Positions 38,249 through 45,374 of a stretch of 45,387 nucleotides of DNA are shown piece after piece. The stretch spans positions 216 to 45,602 of the forward strand of contig PMCK01000486.1 of the NCBI GenBank assembly GCA_003154095.1, written 5' to 3'. Each line of letters opens with the position of its first letter. The first letter of the stretch is position 1. Position numbers and translations under genes: made by a program. The notes beneath the pieces are model-generated. The model saw only the letters and a list, made by a program, of their open reading frames with translations. It ran no database searches and was not told where the DNA came from. This DNA is from Myxococcales bacterium. GTDB lineage: Bacteria > Myxococcota_A > Polyangia > Polyangiales > Polyangiaceae.

Positions 38249-40474
38249 GTGGCGGTGGCGGTGCGTAAACTCACGCGCATTTGTGCAGGGGTGCTCTTGC
38301 TCCCCACTTCCGCAGCGGCCGCCGAGGTCGTTACGGTGGCTCCGATTGACGTGGCCGCTACACCTGAAGCCAACGATTCGACGGACACGTCGCTCGGCGC
38401 GGACACCATCCAAGACTCGAGTGCCGAAGAAGGGCGACCCGGGCCGAGCGGCGACGCTGCTCGGCTTCTGCTCGATTCGCCCGCCGTTGGCCTTCGTTCG
38501 AATGGACCCATCTCGAGTCTGCCGGCGATTCACGGCCTTGCCGATGATCGTCTGCGAATCCAAGTGGACGGCGTCGAGCTTTCAACGGCTTGCCCCAACC
38601 ACATGAATTCTCCGCTTTCGTACGTGGATCCCAGCACCGTGGGCAAGGTCACGGTGTTTGCGGGGGCAACTCCCGTGAGTGTCGGAGGCGACAACCTTGG
38701 AGGTACGGTGCAGGTAAGTTCGACCGAACCCAAGTTTGCGACCGGAGATAAGCCCTATCGCTTCGATGGTCAATTGGGCTCGTTCTACCGCAGCAATGGG
38801 AATGCCTTTGGATACAACTTCCGTGCAAGCGGTGCTGGGCGATGGCTTGCCGTGACGTACGCCCAATCGCAATCGCAGTCGGACAACTACGTGGCGGGTG
38901 GCAACTTCAAACCGACGAGTGCGGGTCGAGAAGGCGCGTTGCTCTTGCCTGCAAACGTGGTTGGCTCGTCCGCTTACAAGGGGGCGTTGAATCGCGCGCT
39001 CGGCATCGCCGCATTGTACGAGGGGCATAGTCTGCAATTGAATCTGTCGCGCCAAACAGTTGGTTTCGAGGGCTTTCCCAACCAACGCATGGACATGACG
39101 CAGAACGACAATAACGTTGCAGCCATCCGCTATCGGGGCCAATTTGCATGGGGTGACTTACTTGCGCGGGCCAGCTACCAAAGAACCGACCACGCAATGG
39201 ACATGGGTCCGGATCGCTATTCATATGGAACGGGTATGCCCATGCGTACTCGCGGTAAAACTCGTGGCGCGGGCCTGCAAAGCAACGTGCTGCTCTCCGA
39301 TAAGGACGGGTTGCGGTTGGGAGGCGAATACCAAGAGTACACGCTATTTGACTGGTGGGACCCGGTGAGCAATTCAGGGAGCATGGGTCCAAACACATTT
39401 TACAACATCGATTACGGGCGCCGGCGGAAGGTCGACGCTTTTGCCGAATGGGAAGCAACGTGGACTCGAGCGTGGACTAGTCAGATAGGTATTCGCAGCG
39501 ACAACGTCGCCACCAATGCCGGACCCGTCCAGGGATACAACAGCTCCTTCAATGATGTGTGGGCTCAAGATGCAGCCGCGTTCAATGCGACGAAGCGCGA
39601 CCAACTGGATAAGAACCTAGACCTTACGGCACTGCTCCGCTTTTCGCCCAAAGAGACACTCGATTATCTACTCGGCTACTCGCGCAAATCACGATCTCCC
39701 AACCTTTACCAGCGGTACGCCTGGGCCAACAATCCCATGGCCGCACTGATGAACAACTTGGCGGGTGACGGCAACGGATACATCGGCAATGTCGATTTGA
39801 AACCCGAAGTGGCGCACACATGGAGCCTGAATGCCCGTTGGCGTGACGCCGGCCGTCAGCGTTGGGAGCTCGATGCAACGAGCTACTTCACGTACATCGA
39901 GGACTACATCGACGCCAGACGCTGCGAATCGCTGCAATGCAGCGCCACCGCAAACCAAACGGCGGGCTTCGTCTTGCTTCAGTACCTGAATCGAACAGCC
40001 AGAATTCACGGTATCGACGTATCGGGGAGGCTCCTTTTCGCAAAGTCGGCCCGCATGGGAGCACTCACGGGGGTTGGCGTCTTGAGCTATGTCAACGGGC
40101 AGAACGTAACCACTGGCGATGGGCTTTATGACATCATGCCGTTCAATGCCAAGTTTAGGCTCCAGCACTCGATAGGCGGGCTTGAATCACAGGCTGAGGT
40201 TATCGCCGTTGCTGACAAGAGCCACGTTTCTCACGTTCGCAACGAAATAGAAACGCCTGCATATTGGCTGCTCAATCTTCGCGCAAGCTATCGATGGGAG
40301 GTGGCTCGGTTGGATGTGTCCGTCGAAAACCTGGTCAACCGACTGTACTACGCGCCGCTCTCGGGGGTCTATGTTGGGCAGGGACCATCAATGACGACCA
40401 ACGGTGTTCCCTGGGGCGTGGCGGTTCCGGGACGTGGGCGCTCATTCGACTTCGCCTTCAACTACTATTTCTAG
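38249..40474 (+). CDS. OprC/NosA-like copper TonB-dependent receptor
   Basis: Plug with LRIQVDGVELSTACPNHMNSPLSYVDPSTV (CxxxM) and loop TDHAMDMGPDRYSYGTGMPM (HxM), the signature residues of OprC/NosA. Confidence 0.88.
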   Translation: MAVAVRKLTRICAGVLLLPTSAAAAEVVTVAPIDVAATPEANDSTDTSLGADTIQDSSAEEGRPGPSGDAARLLLDSPAVGLRSNGPISSLPAIHGLADDRLRIQVDGVELSTACPNHMNSPLSYVDPSTVGKVTVFAGATPVSVGGDNLGGTVQVSSTEPKFATGDKPYRFDGQLGSFYRSNGNAFGYNFRASGAGRWLAVTYAQSQSQSDNYVAGGNFKPTSAGREGALLLPANVVGSSAYKGALNRALGIAALYEGHSLQLNLSRQTVGFEGFPNQRMDMTQNDNNVAAIRYRGQFAWGDLLARASYQRTDHAMDMGPDRYSYGTGMPMRTRGKTRGAGLQSNVLLSDKDGLRLGGEYQEYTLFDWWDPVSNSGSMGPNTFYNIDYGRRRKVDAFAEWEATWTRAWTSQIGIRSDNVATNAGPVQGYNSSFNDVWAQDAAAFNATKRDQLDKNLDLTALLRFSPKETLDYLLGYSRKSRSPNLYQRYAWANNPMAALMNNLAGDGNGYIGNVDLKPEVAHTWSLNARWRDAGRQRWELDATSYFTYIEDYIDARRCESLQCSATANQTAGFVLLQYLNRTARIHGIDVSGRLLFAKSARMGALTGVGVLSYVNGQNVTTGDGLYDIMPFNAKFRLQHSIGGLESQAEVIAVADKSHVSHVRNEIETPAYWLLNLRASYRWEVARLDVSVENLVNRLYYAPLSGVYVGQGPSMTTNGVPWGVAVPGRGRSFDFAFNYYF

Positions 40475-40475
40475 C

Positions 40476-41240
40476 ATGGCGCGCCGCGGCTCTTCCTTGT
40501 CGAAATCAGCCAGATTCTCCTGGTGGCTGGGTTGTTCTATCGCGGTGCATGTCGGTCTACTCAATGCCCGCTCAGCAGAACAACATGAGCTGGGGTCGCG
40601 GATGGGTCGCCCAATGACATTCGAACTGCTCGAAGTCCCCAAGGAGATTCCGGTGTCCATCGCCGTGAGCTCTGGTCAGGAATCACCTATCGATCTGGGC
40701 TCGACTCGAGTGCCGAACCGAGCATCTGCCCGAAGCAGTCGAATGCCTGACTCCCAACCCATCGCGGTGCACCAATCGCAAGCAGTGCCGCCCACCACAC
40801 CGGAGGCTGCAGCTCATCCGGGCCCGTCAGAGCAGGGCGAAGATATTGGACCGACGTCGTCGGGTGGGCGTACCGCGGTCTCCGCCGAAGCCGCACCCCT
40901 ACCGAAGGCATCGGTGGGTACGAGCCAAACACCGGGAACTAACATCTCGCATGCGAGAGCAGACTATTACAGTTTGCTAAGAGCCGCAGTCGAGCGGCAC
41001 CGGGAGTATCCGCGAGCGGCGAGGCGCGCACGCCTGCAAGGCACGGTGGTTCTGCGGTTGTCAGTGTCGCGCGCGGGCCAATTGCTTTCGGCAAGCGTGA
41101 GCAAGTCTTCAGGAGAAGACACCTTGGATAATGCCGCGCTGTCGGCGGTACGAATGACTGGAACATTTCCTGCCGCACCAGCCGAAGTGGGAGGCGTAGC
41201 GATCACTCTCGAATTGCCATTCGTATTTCGATTGAGGTAG
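40476..41240 (+). CDS. tonB: TonB energy transducer
   Basis: MARRGSSLSKSARFSWWLGCSIAVHVGLL...; C-terminal HREYPRAARRARLQGTVVLRLSVSRAGQLLSASVSKSSGEDTLDNAALSAVR. Confidence 0.88.
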   Translation: MARRGSSLSKSARFSWWLGCSIAVHVGLLNARSAEQHELGSRMGRPMTFELLEVPKEIPVSIAVSSGQESPIDLGSTRVPNRASARSSRMPDSQPIAVHQSQAVPPTTPEAAAHPGPSEQGEDIGPTSSGGRTAVSAEAAPLPKASVGTSQTPGTNISHARADYYSLLRAAVERHREYPRAARRARLQGTVVLRLSVSRAGQLLSASVSKSSGEDTLDNAALSAVRMTGTFPAAPAEVGGVAITLELPFVFRLR

Positions 41241-41273: not shown

Positions 41274-42146
41274 TCATGGAGGTTGAGCCACGAGCACCCC
41301 ATGCTTGCGGCAAATGCTGAGACAACTCCGGATGAGATCTGGGAGCGAGTCCTTCGACTCGGCTGGGGTCACAGCGTCGAGTCGGTCGATGGCTTCTGCC
41401 AGTGAAGATTGGTCGAGCAGTGACAAGAGCGTAAATTCCAGTGGCTCTAGCGCGAGGCGTCCAAAACCTGACGAGGTTCGTTGAATCAGCCAGTGCTTTG
41501 GCGTCAGGTAACGTTCTGGCAATACCGCTGCGCTCTCATCCTCGGGTCGAATGGCATCGCGGATGTCAAGCAGTGGCCAATGCTCCTGAATGAGCGCCAC
41601 GTTGGTGGCCAACCGAAGCTTGATTGTCCCCACCTGCACTGCATCAGCGTTGAGCGGCTCTGAAGCAGAAACTGGCGCCTGAAAAATCTTTCTAAACGAC
41701 TCGTCAATGCTGGTGGCCTCCCTAACCGCACGCTGCGGCGGTATTCTTGCTGCGTCAGAATCCCGTTCCGGCGCGCCATATCCCTCGCGCACGAAGTCGG
41801 CAAACCCGTCAGCCGCGTGCGAAAGATCGAAATGCTGCGGTGGCGATTGCAGCAGGAACTTCATTGCGTACCCGTTGAATGTCCAATGGCCGAGCAAACG
41901 CGCGAGCGACGGAAATTCGGTTTGCAATGCGCTCAGCAGTCGAAACCAATACTGTCGGTTGTAGATAGCGAGTCGTTCTTTGGCGTGATGGGCAACGCTG
42001 TCAACGACGGCGTCTATGATGTGCCTTTCATAGGCATCGATATCCGCGCGAAGCCAACCGGTTTCGCGGCGAAGTGGTACCCGCAGCAACCGCCCGAATT
42101 TCTGCTGGAGTTCTTCAACCCAGCTTGGCAGAGCGGGAACTAGCAT
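41274..42146 (-). CDS. DUF2063-type MNIO partner protein (BufC/HvfC-like)
   Basis: ERLAIYNRQYWFRLLSALQTEFPSLARLLG is typical of DUF2063; overlaps the DUF692 gene by 7 bp. Confidence 0.78.
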   Translation of the reverse strand: MLVPALPSWVEELQQKFGRLLRVPLRRETGWLRADIDAYERHIIDAVVDSVAHHAKERLAIYNRQYWFRLLSALQTEFPSLARLLGHWTFNGYAMKFLLQSPPQHFDLSHAADGFADFVREGYGAPERDSDAARIPPQRAVREATSIDESFRKIFQAPVSASEPLNADAVQVGTIKLRLATNVALIQEHWPLLDIRDAIRPEDESAAVLPERYLTPKHWLIQRTSSGFGRLALEPLEFTLLSLLDQSSLAEAIDRLDAVTPAESKDSLPDLIRSCLSICRKHGVLVAQPP

Positions 42147-42994
42147 GCTCGCGCACCCATTGCCTTTCTGAGTTCGTCAACGAGGACGGGCAACGGTGGG
42201 ATCTTGTCGTCCCATTCGAGGAGCGTTGGAAATGGTCCTCCGATTTGCCAGGCATACTTGTAGAGCGTCCAAACGCTGTCCGCCACCAGATGGTCGTGCG
42301 TGTCAACGATAAGTCCCGATGGGTCGCGCGAGTGCCCTGCCATATGCACCTGCAACACTCGAGAGAAATCGATGCGCTCGAGATACGTCTTGGGATCGAA
42401 AGAATGGTTGTGACTCGAGACGAAGACATTGTTGACATCGAGCAGGAGCCCGCAATCGGCTTGCTCGACAATGGCTGATATGAAGTCCCACTCGGTCAGC
42501 GTTGAGCTCTTGTACGAGACGTAACTCGAGAGGTTTTCGAGCCCAAAGGGACGACCGAGACGCTTCTGAACGTATGCGGCGCGCGCAGCAGCAACCTCGA
42601 CAAGTTCTGGGACATGAGGCACCGGCAGCAAATCATGGTGTCTATGATGTTCACTCGAGGTAAAGCACAGGTGGTCGGTTACGAATGGCGCATCGACGAG
42701 ATCGGCAAGTCGACAGAGCCGATCCAGGTACTCTTCGTCCGGGAAATCAGCGCCCAGGAGGTTGAGCCCGACCCCATGCAGTACAATCGGGTACTTCGCG
42801 CGTACCCGGCCCAGGTAGTGCAAAGGCGAGGCTGCGTCCGTCATGAAGTTCTCGCTGATTGCCTCGAAGTAATCAACTTCAGGCAATGATTCGAGCACTT
42901 CAGTGTAATGGACTTGGCGCAGCCCCAAGCCGAGAGCATTTCTAGCAATTCTGAGCCGGGGGCTTCCTCGGGTGGATGGCAAGCAGGTCGTCAC
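42140..42994 (-). CDS. DUF692 multinuclear non-heme iron oxidase (MNIO; MbnB/BufB-like)
   Basis: ALGLGLRQVHY, VDYFEAISENFM, VLHGVGLNLLG, VTDHLCFT, GLENLSSYV, DCGLLLDVNNVFVSSHNHSFDP, RVLQVHMAGH, VDTHDHLV, LLEWDDKIP. Confidence 0.95.
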   Translation of the reverse strand: MTTCLPSTRGSPRLRIARNALGLGLRQVHYTEVLESLPEVDYFEAISENFMTDAASPLHYLGRVRAKYPIVLHGVGLNLLGADFPDEEYLDRLCRLADLVDAPFVTDHLCFTSSEHHRHHDLLPVPHVPELVEVAAARAAYVQKRLGRPFGLENLSSYVSYKSSTLTEWDFISAIVEQADCGLLLDVNNVFVSSHNHSFDPKTYLERIDFSRVLQVHMAGHSRDPSGLIVDTHDHLVADSVWTLYKYAWQIGGPFPTLLEWDDKIPPLPVLVDELRKAMGARAC

Positions 42995-43713
42995 ATGCTA
43001 CCTGCGTCGCCCACTTCCTCATTGACACCCAAGGTTCCGTACTCTTCCGCTTCGACCTGTAGCGAGCGGACGTACGTCACGACTCGCTCAATTTCGGCGC
43101 GCGAGTACTTTTCGTGGAAGCCGGGCATATTCGCGTAGCTCGTCCCATTCGAATTGATGCCGTCACTTCCGAATGCAACAGTGTTGACTAGCTGGGCTTC
43201 TGGCTGTTGCAGAAAATTCTGTGCTGCCGCGATGAGGTCAGTTCCCTGCGGAACATAGTAGGTGAACTTGCCGGAACCGTGACAACCTTGGCAACTCGTG
43301 CTGAAGACTTCGGCTCCGGTGCGGCCTGTGTCTGCCGGCAACACCACGCAACTCATGCCTCCGCAAGTGTTCATCGCCTTGCAGGTGTGCTCGATGAGCT
43401 GGTGACTGAATTTGTTGAAAGACATGCCCTTGCAACTATTGTTGCCCGCACAAGCGGCATGGGTTTGTACTAATCCCCCCCGAGCGTCACACTCTGACGT
43501 AAATTTCTCGACCGTCATCTCGTTGTTGATCACGACCGAAAGGACTTTCGGGCCGTCGGGAGCGGCTTGGTCGTCGCTTCCACAACCAACGCCCGCCCCT
43601 AAGAGTCCCGCGACGGCGGCTGAAAGCAGGGTCGCTCTGCGTAAGTCCTTTCCCAAAATGCCCGGCTCTGAAGTCTCTTTCCCGGCGGTCTGCGAGTTCG
43701 TCGATTCGCGCAT
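42991..43713 (-). CDS. Candidate MNIO substrate: signal peptide + Cys-rich repeat + c-type cytochrome domain
   Basis: KDLRRATLLSAAVAGLLGAGVGCGSDD; CAGNNSCKGMSF and CKAMNTCGGMSC; STSCQGCHGSGKFTYYVPQ...SYANMPGFHEKYSRAEIERVVTYVRSL. ATGA overlap with the DUF692 gene. Confidence 0.85.
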   Translation of the reverse strand: MRESTNSQTAGKETSEPGILGKDLRRATLLSAAVAGLLGAGVGCGSDDQAAPDGPKVLSVVINNEMTVEKFTSECDARGGLVQTHAACAGNNSCKGMSFNKFSHQLIEHTCKAMNTCGGMSCVVLPADTGRTGAEVFSTSCQGCHGSGKFTYYVPQGTDLIAAAQNFLQQPEAQLVNTVAFGSDGINSNGTSYANMPGFHEKYSRAEIERVVTYVRSLQVEAEEYGTLGVNEEVGDAGSM

Positions 43714-43919: not shown

Positions 43920-44270
43920 CTACTTCCTTTGCTTCAGGTCCATCTTGCAGATGGGGCACGTACCGTTTCCTTGTTTCATCTGCGCCCAATGCACCGTGCC
44001 CATGTCGCAATACCAGGCTCCAGCGGGCACCTGTTTAGGCTGAATAGGTGGATCGAACTTCTTGCCGTCCGGCGGCACGTCAACGACTGGCAGTTTCGCC
44101 GTCGAACTCGACGCAGCGGTTGGAGTGATACCGTTGCCCGAGCCGGACTTGTCACATGACAGTTGGGCACCCGCGCAGGCAAATACAGTCACCGTTGCGG
44201 CGAGCCCGATCACCATTGGACGAGCGCCTGTTACTCGAGAAGCGAACTTGCTGATTGTCGTCGTTTGCAT
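43920..44270 (-). CDS. Lipoprotein with heavy-metal-binding (HMBD-like) motif
   Basis: From ATG 44270: MQTTTISKFASRVTGARPMVIGLAATVTVFACAGAQLSC...PAGAWYCDMGTVHWAQMKQGNGTCPICKMDLKQRK. Confidence 0.75.
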   Translation of the reverse strand: MQTTTISKFASRVTGARPMVIGLAATVTVFACAGAQLSCDKSGSGNGITPTAASSSTAKLPVVDVPPDGKKFDPPIQPKQVPAGAWYCDMGTVHWAQMKQGNGTCPICKMDLKQRK

Positions 44271-44420
44271 GGGGTGCGCGCTTGGTGAAGCCAGCGCCAT
44301 ACCTATAGCAACAGGACCACATTGACAAGGTGCGCGGCCCTAGACGCAACAGAAATCCTTGAAGCGGCCGTGCAAGTTCAAAGACTCGAGATCCCAAGCG
44401 ACCAATTGCATACCGCGTGA

Positions 44421-44439: not shown

Positions 44440-44594
44440 GGTCACTGTTACAATGATCCAAGCGATAACTCATCCAATGATCCGACTTCTTGAGTCACGG
44501 ACACGTCACTTGACTCATGGTGTTCGTCACGAATATTGCCTCTGCAAAACTTCGGAGCTTTCGGGTGAGTCCTATTCGTGATCGAGGAATCAAT

Positions 44595-45374
44595 ATGTCG
44601 TCAATTGTTCGGTATCTCTGTGTTGGGCTAGCTATACAAGCGTGTTCGGGTCAGACGAATTCGTCAGCAGGTGTAGCGTCTCCCCAAGCGTCAACTCCCG
44701 CGATAGCCTCGTCAGCTGCATCGGGCTCTCCCACAGCCGCGGTACCCTCAGCGGCCCCTACGAAGTCGACCGAGGACGTGCCTGTTACGTTGTCGAGTCC
44801 GCCTCCACCAGCGCCATCGAGCGCAGCGAATACACCACCACCTGCTGACACCAACACACCTAAGCTTGGATCGATTCGGGGTACGCTCATCACGCATCCC
44901 TCGCAATCCGCGCAGAGTGCGGTCGTGTTCCTGGAGAACGCACCCATTGAGAAAGTCGTGGATGCAAAACTCGACGACCACAAAATGACGTTCTTCCCGT
45001 TCGTTTCGGTGATGACGGTGGGCGGAACTCTAACGTACGTCAACAGCGAGCCCTTCCCGGACACCGCCTACTCGCTCAGCAACGAAAAGTGCGACTTTGG
45101 CATGGTAGAATCGCATGGAATTCGAAAACGCAAGTTCCCGAATGCGGGCAACTACACGATTCTGTGCCGCCTGCACCCAAACCAACTGGCGTTTCTCATC
45201 GTGACACCTTCAAGTTACTTTGCTCGCACAAACAAGAGTGGCGAGTATGCGCTCGAGAACGTGCCTTATGGTACCTACGAGCTTGTCGCGTGGGCGCCAC
45301 GAGTGAAGGGCGACCGACGTTCGGTAACCGTTGCAGGCGATGAAACGGTAGTGAATTTCGAACTCAAACGCTAA
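44595..45374 (+). CDS. Lipoprotein with cupredoxin-like domain and C-terminal carboxypeptidase-regulatory-like segment
   Basis: Lipobox LAIQACSG; Pro/Ala/Ser-rich linker; FFPFVSVMTVGGTLTYVNSEPFPDTAYS...FPNAGNYTILCRLHPNQLAFLIVTPSSYFA; SGEYALENVPYGTYELVAW. Confidence 0.78.
   Translation: MSSIVRYLCVGLAIQACSGQTNSSAGVASPQASTPAIASSAASGSPTAAVPSAAPTKSTEDVPVTLSSPPPPAPSSAANTPPPADTNTPKLGSIRGTLITHPSQSAQSAVVFLENAPIEKVVDAKLDDHKMTFFPFVSVMTVGGTLTYVNSEPFPDTAYSLSNEKCDFGMVESHGIRKRKFPNAGNYTILCRLHPNQLAFLIVTPSSYFARTNKSGEYALENVPYGTYELVAWAPRVKGDRRSVTVAGDETVVNFELKR

Follow-up and report, generated by a model that had tools for sequence, protein, structure and literature searches.

MNIO products are mostly regarded as small copper-binding peptides, and the locus described here raises the question of what such an enzyme modifies when the gene coupled to its own encodes an exported protein with a cytochrome c domain. 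The locus lies in a window of 45,387 nucleotides, the whole stretch of DNA analysed, from a Myxococcales bacterium (contig PMCK01000486.1), and comprises genes for a precursor (A), an MNIO (B), and a DUF2063 partner (C), the features of which are collected in Table 1. We consider it probable that the locus belongs to the bufferin type (captophorin class), with an MNIO that acts on a protein and not on a small peptide, and that its role is copper handling for respiration.

Table 1. Features of the A-B-C locus and neighbouring genes (positions in the window)
Feature	Position	Strand	Basis or remarks
Precursor A	42991..43713	-	240 aa; lipoprotein-like signal, six-Cys bufferin-like domain, cytochrome c domain
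N-terminal signal region of A, up to putative lipobox Cys44	43582..43713	-	C44 invariant in 11-row alignment
Six-Cys domain, C75-C122	43348..43491	-	Cys conserved across 29 homologues
Unit 1, C88-AGNNS-C94-KGMS	43420..43452	-	hhalign to Buf2 unit 1
Unit 2, C111-KAMNT-C117-GGMSC122	43348..43383	-	hhalign to Buf2 unit 2
Class I cytochrome c domain (CcoP / c6-like)	43060..43326	-	PF13442/PF00034
Heme c attachment motif CQGCH (C141-H145)	43279..43293	-	C141, C144, H145 in 19/19 fused homologues
Met196, predicted axial heme ligand	43126..43128	-	19/19 fused homologues
MNIO B (PF05114; BufB-type)	42140..42994	-	284 aa, GTG start
DUF2063 partner C	41274..42146	-	290 aa; PF09836 57.3 bits (cut-off 27.2)
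Small lipoprotein-like protein, HMBD-like CPICKMDL motif	43920..44300	-	PF19335 E 0.014, 15.8 vs 23.6 bits (below cut-off)
Divergent lipoprotein-like protein, cupredoxin-like region + CarboxypepD_reg	44517..45374	+	PF13620 35.5 bits; amicyanin E 0.098 (weak)
TonB-dependent receptor + TonB, convergent with C	38249..41240	+	PF00593, PF03544

The original prediction had described a translationally coupled minus-strand trio, and three open reading frames are found at the predicted positions, with Pfam matches over the cut-offs confirming a CxxCH cytochrome c domain in A and the identities of B (DUF692) and C. The match of B to PF05114 is strong (E 4.6e-93, 311.7 bits, cut-off 25), and the BufB equivalog model NF050167 is passed by a narrow margin (312.1 bits against 310). 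The iron ligands reported for VcMbnB (H55, H91, E135, D165, N168, H194, D209, and E238; PMC8888699) have conserved equivalents in B in alignments with 3bww, 8hci, and 7dz9 inspected by eye, those of E135 and E238 being read from the 3bww and 8hci rows. C also gives a weak HvfC-type RRE match (25 bits against a cut-off of 142). The reading frames of B and C share the 7 nt predicted; the overlap of A and B, which had been given as ATGA, reads GTGA, the stop codon of A (TGA, 42993-42991) overlapping the start of B (GTG, 42994) within 4 nt, and the ATG at this junction is the last codon of A. Since the frames overlap, there is no room for another open reading frame between A and B. The locus thus has the MNIO, DUF2063 partner, and Cys-rich precursor that make up the gene set of a captophorin (MNIO-PME1) locus.

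Of 290 genomes of the class, 21, that of the window included, had a match in a protein search, and further homologues came from profile searching across the phylum and from scanning named genomes. Once duplicates, judged by the sequence surrounding the Cys motif, were removed, 29 distinct homologues of A remained, 19 fused to a cytochrome (the window protein included) and 10 standalone, which supplies the motif survey, with the frequency of fusion to CxxCH domains, that had been proposed with the original prediction. The fused proteins, with members in Sorangium cellulosum and a Kofleriaceae MAG, come from Myxococcota or unclassified "delta" genomes and from one Silvanigrellales MAG (Bdellovibrionota), on which alone the barely sampled spread beyond Myxococcota rests. 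A plasmid search gave no homologue of A. From its recurrence in at least 19 genomes we conclude that the fused architecture is real, a conserved and largely undescribed bufferin-type variant in which, as predicted, the Cys units have a covalent link to a heme domain. Artefactual fusion through sequencing error or frameshift was ruled out by the 19 fused homologues and their uniform boundary. Because ten homologues lack it, the cytochrome is dispensable for the Cys domain; the last Cys is followed by only 3-4 residues in these standalone forms.

The two Cys units sit within the six-Cys domain as had been claimed. All 29 homologues, the window protein included, share C75, C88, C111, C117, C122, G80, G96, H109, and G119, and 28 share C94. 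The sole loss of a domain Cys among the 29 is that of C94 in L074/L095, where unit 1 reads SCAGAVVGRG. Neither Foldseek nor a profile search against the PDB found a convincing PDB match for the domain. A single-sequence AlphaFold model was discarded (pLDDT 33), and a 16-row model (69.6) served only for placing the cytochrome fold. The C-terminal domain has the CxxCH motif, the predicted axial Met, and the family score over cut-off of a class I cytochrome c (PF13442, 34.3 bits, cut-off 27; PF00034, 34.6 bits, cut-off 21.3); an AFG triplet is identical in all 19 fused homologues, and by analogy with the class I fold Met196 would be the heme ligand. Cytochrome c6 is among the top Foldseek matches, with a probability of 1.0 but an E value of about 0.02. 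Genes for cytochrome c assembly were found in the window genome. One homologue (L025:4210-5010) has CASMCH, a CxxxCH motif, in place of CxxCH.

At the N-terminus, A has a putative lipidation site at C44, and its signal peptide likely doubles as the leader, as the Sec signal does in bufferins according to a passage of PMC13419390 citing Junger et al. An HMM derived from Buf2 signal peptides gave 12.0 bits for the window protein and at most 8.4 bits for controls excluding Buf2 members; many family members scored lower, and the A family was not clearly separated from control lipoproteins. The motif A..GL[LFIM], picked after viewing the family, occurs in 16 of 25 family members, 3 of 12 Buf2 proteins, and none of 29 controls. 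A leader recognition common to the A family and Buf2 is at most suggested by these comparisons. Some fused precursors (L026, L027, L028, L033, and L072/L073 from Sorangium) have additional N-terminal domains. Four members of alignment A1 match PF11617 (Cu-binding_MopE) and EF-hand models; the PF11617 region is D-rich and may have calcium instead of copper as its ligand.

The link between A and the MNIO recurs with the domain. MNIO and DUF2063 genes adjoin the A homologue, or lie within about 4 kb of it, in 25 of 29 cases (17/19 fused, 8/10 standalone). The commonest gene order is A-B-C; B-C-A is found in L029 and L103, A lies about 3 kb from C in L030 and L032, and at eight standalone loci (L036-L039, L041-L044) A is convergent with C, abutting or overlapping the end of the DUF2063 gene. 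In L074 (1379-3160, 593 aa) and L092 the MNIO and DUF2063 partner occupy a single reading frame, a natural B-C fusion. One of the four homologues not beside an MNIO (L034) shares its contig with one at a distance of about 22 kb, and the other three (L031, L035, L040) are on short or fragmented contigs. An MNIO is encoded in all 20 other domain-carrying genomes tested and in the window genome, which has one PF05114 gene; the original prediction had named the reverse pattern, homologues of the Cys region consistently without DUF692, as one that would count against it. In a tree of 48 MNIOs, 25 from the A family and 23 associated with Buf2, all of the former fall into one group (support 100/99) and all of the latter outside it; standalone forms are nested among fused ones and may have lost the cytochrome.

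On these genomic grounds the view that the Cys domain of A is the MNIO substrate is well supported. Were the domain instead an unmodified, disulfide-bonded structural module, and the substrate of the MNIO some other molecule, its six Cys could form three disulfides, its partly structured appearance in the model (of moderate confidence) would be expected, and the four homologues without an adjacent MNIO would pose no difficulty. The strict Cys conservation together with the overlapping A and B frames, the frequency of MNIO adjacency, the tracking of precursor type by MNIO phylogeny, and the homology of the units to Buf2 make this explanation improbable.

That homology also bears on which Cys would be modified. 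In an hhalign comparison of the A family with Buf2 (alignments A2 and A3) both CxGxNxCxG units aligned (93.6%, E 2.1e-7), and 16 of 17 domains match the BufA2 model (NF050166) at E ≤ 1, the best at 5.5e-5; the window protein (12.2 bits whole, 18 bits for its domain) stays under the 60-bit cut-off of that model. By these sequence measures the Cys domain of A is a remote Buf2 relative. It has both units but not the six-Cys spacing of Buf2, in which the third Cys follows unit 1 and the sixth follows unit 2 and a linker. In Buf1 the central Cys are modified and the outer two form a disulfide (PMC12452194). Because only the unit Cys are shared with Buf2, and given the Buf1 precedent, we infer that C88, C94, C111, and C117 are the modification targets and that C75 and C122 form a disulfide. 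The original prediction had taken all six Cys as the modified core; the two units are likely the target of the MNIO, and C75 and C122 are probably structural.

We propose the following as a hypothesis of how the locus works. The DUF2063 partner would recognise the signal/leader of A in the cytoplasm, and the MNIO would oxidise Cys of both CxGxNxCxG units, most likely the four named above, to thiooxazole/thiol groups, thiooxazoles being the copper ligands of bufferins (PMC12452194). A would then be exported by Sec and anchored in the envelope through lipidation of C44, the C75-C122 disulfide would form as it does between the outer Cys of Buf1, and the cytochrome c maturation system would attach heme at C141/C144. 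The mature lipoprotein would hold Cu(I) beside a Met/His-ligated heme and would buffer copper for respiration, possibly setting the redox state of copper during its storage or release. The "scavenger or carrier" role given to A in the original prediction is a guess; bufferins have been described as chelators of excess copper (PMC12452194).

A could be a plain copper buffer, in which the modified Cys domain sequesters copper as other bufferins do and the cytochrome is an independent electron-transfer domain merely co-localised by the fusion, with no electron transfer between heme and copper. The existence of standalone versions with equal Cys conservation, the modularity of other bufferin fusions (MerC, EF-hand, FGE-sulfatase; PMC12452194), and the linker ahead of the Cys domain, which differs widely between homologues, all fit this explanation, whereas the greater frequency of the fused state (19 against 10), the uniform tail of the fused proteins (107-145 residues beyond the final Cys, including the heme motif), and the nesting of standalone among fused forms in the MNIO tree, which is compatible with an ancient fusion, do not favour it; we rate its chances as substantial, if short of even. 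A could also be a two-cofactor redox protein, with Cu(I) on thiooxazole/thiolate and heme c in one chain, in which copper-heme electron transfer loads, reduces, or releases copper for the respiratory chain and expression is under RegB/RegA redox control. We think this unlikely.

A RegA/PrrA- and RegB/PrrB-like pair (best model scores below cut-off) neighbours the locus on the contig of the window (G000:C227, L086:3633-5449), about 1.7 kb away from where A starts, with RegA beginning about 30 bases beyond the end of the window; the window genome has only two RegA-like regulators at E ≤ 1e-25. Genes of this type also occur in L071, where they lie immediately upstream of A, and in L103, upstream of B. 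MbnH passes its cut-off in L071 and L031, and MbnP passes in L071 and has a homologue in L031. L025 has as neighbours a heavy-metal ATPase and further genes next door, which from their sequences we take to be CcoI-like and a cbb3 oxidase, respectively. Copper and respiration neighbours thus recur in some loci, a minority noticed post hoc (RegB/RegA in three, MbnP/MbnH in two, cbb3 in one).

Within the window, the copper genes that had been predicted on both flanks are less clear. The small lipoprotein-like gene, 206 bp upstream of A and possibly an operon member with it, is below the Pfam cut-off, the divergent gene resembles amicyanin weakly, and for the TonB receptor (38249-40474) a copper receptor model with a cut-off of 472 gives 86 bits and heme-receptor models give more, 115 bits. 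If A were a chalkophore acquiring copper, this receptor and the TonB beside it could import the loaded product or copper; both genes adjoin the trio, and the MbnP and MbnH families found near two homologues take their name from methanobactin loci. Release of A is, however, unlikely in view of its apparent membrane anchor (the conserved C44) and heme domain, the receptor does better on heme than on copper models, and no homologue of it was found at the other loci searched, so that we regard a chalkophore as highly doubtful.

If the preferred reading, a bufferin-type locus with a protein substrate, is correct, a conserved family with a protein target and a second metal cofactor would bring redox proteins within the reach of MNIO chemistry and would connect copper buffering with respiration in a way open to testing. 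The A family is also one that size-limited mining would tend to miss; the first screen of PMC12452194 was limited to precursors of under 200 residues.

Among known systems, the closest relatives of the heme domain of A are CcoP of the cbb3 oxidase and cytochrome c6. The domain in A is mono-heme, anchored by a predicted N-terminal lipid site, and preceded by a Cys-rich domain, and it is not part of an oxidase subunit as CcoP is. Methanobactin MbnABC shares MNIO chemistry on Cys and a link to copper, and MbnP/MbnH-family genes adjoin two A homologues, but B is far from MbnB (46.9 bits against a cut-off of 325) and A is an exported protein where MbnA-type precursors are small leader-core peptides; a search of the incomplete window genome, run without a positive control, did not find MbnP. 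DoxX genes are common in bufferin loci, and none was noticed near this one.

The resemblance is greatest to Buf2 (BufA2, NF050166; Buf_6/12Cys; the "Cys-Lys" captophorins, PMC13097082), with which A has in common two CxGxNxCxG units, six Cys, an exported precursor, and an A-B-C gene order that includes MNIO and DUF2063; among Buf2 proteins, about 16% are predicted lipoproteins (PMC12452194). The A family differs in its separate MNIO group, its scores under the BufA2 cut-off, and the placing of its remaining Cys, C75 ahead of unit 1 and C122 at the close of unit 2; in Buf2 one comes after unit 1 and the other some way beyond unit 2. L055 and L064, from the same family as the window genome, have tandem canonical Buf2 domains. 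Antoine et al. describe MerC fusions for Buf2 and, for Buf1, a few instances of Buf1|Cytochrom_C and Buf1|Cytochrom_C|FGE-sulfatase (e.g., WP_017136223.1, WP_160059411.1; PMC12452194). These, compared here by their description, likewise combine a bufferin precursor domain and a PF00034 cytochrome c domain in a single protein, but with a four-Cys DUF2282 (Buf1) domain, for which a Pfam scan of A gave no match up to E 1; the A family has a six-Cys, Buf2-like domain and an MNIO clade to itself, and it numbers at least 19 fused members. In the openly readable papers searched, no Buf2-like|cytochrome c family is described. The idea of a bufferin|cytochrome c fusion is already published, and the A family is a Buf2-like variant of it.
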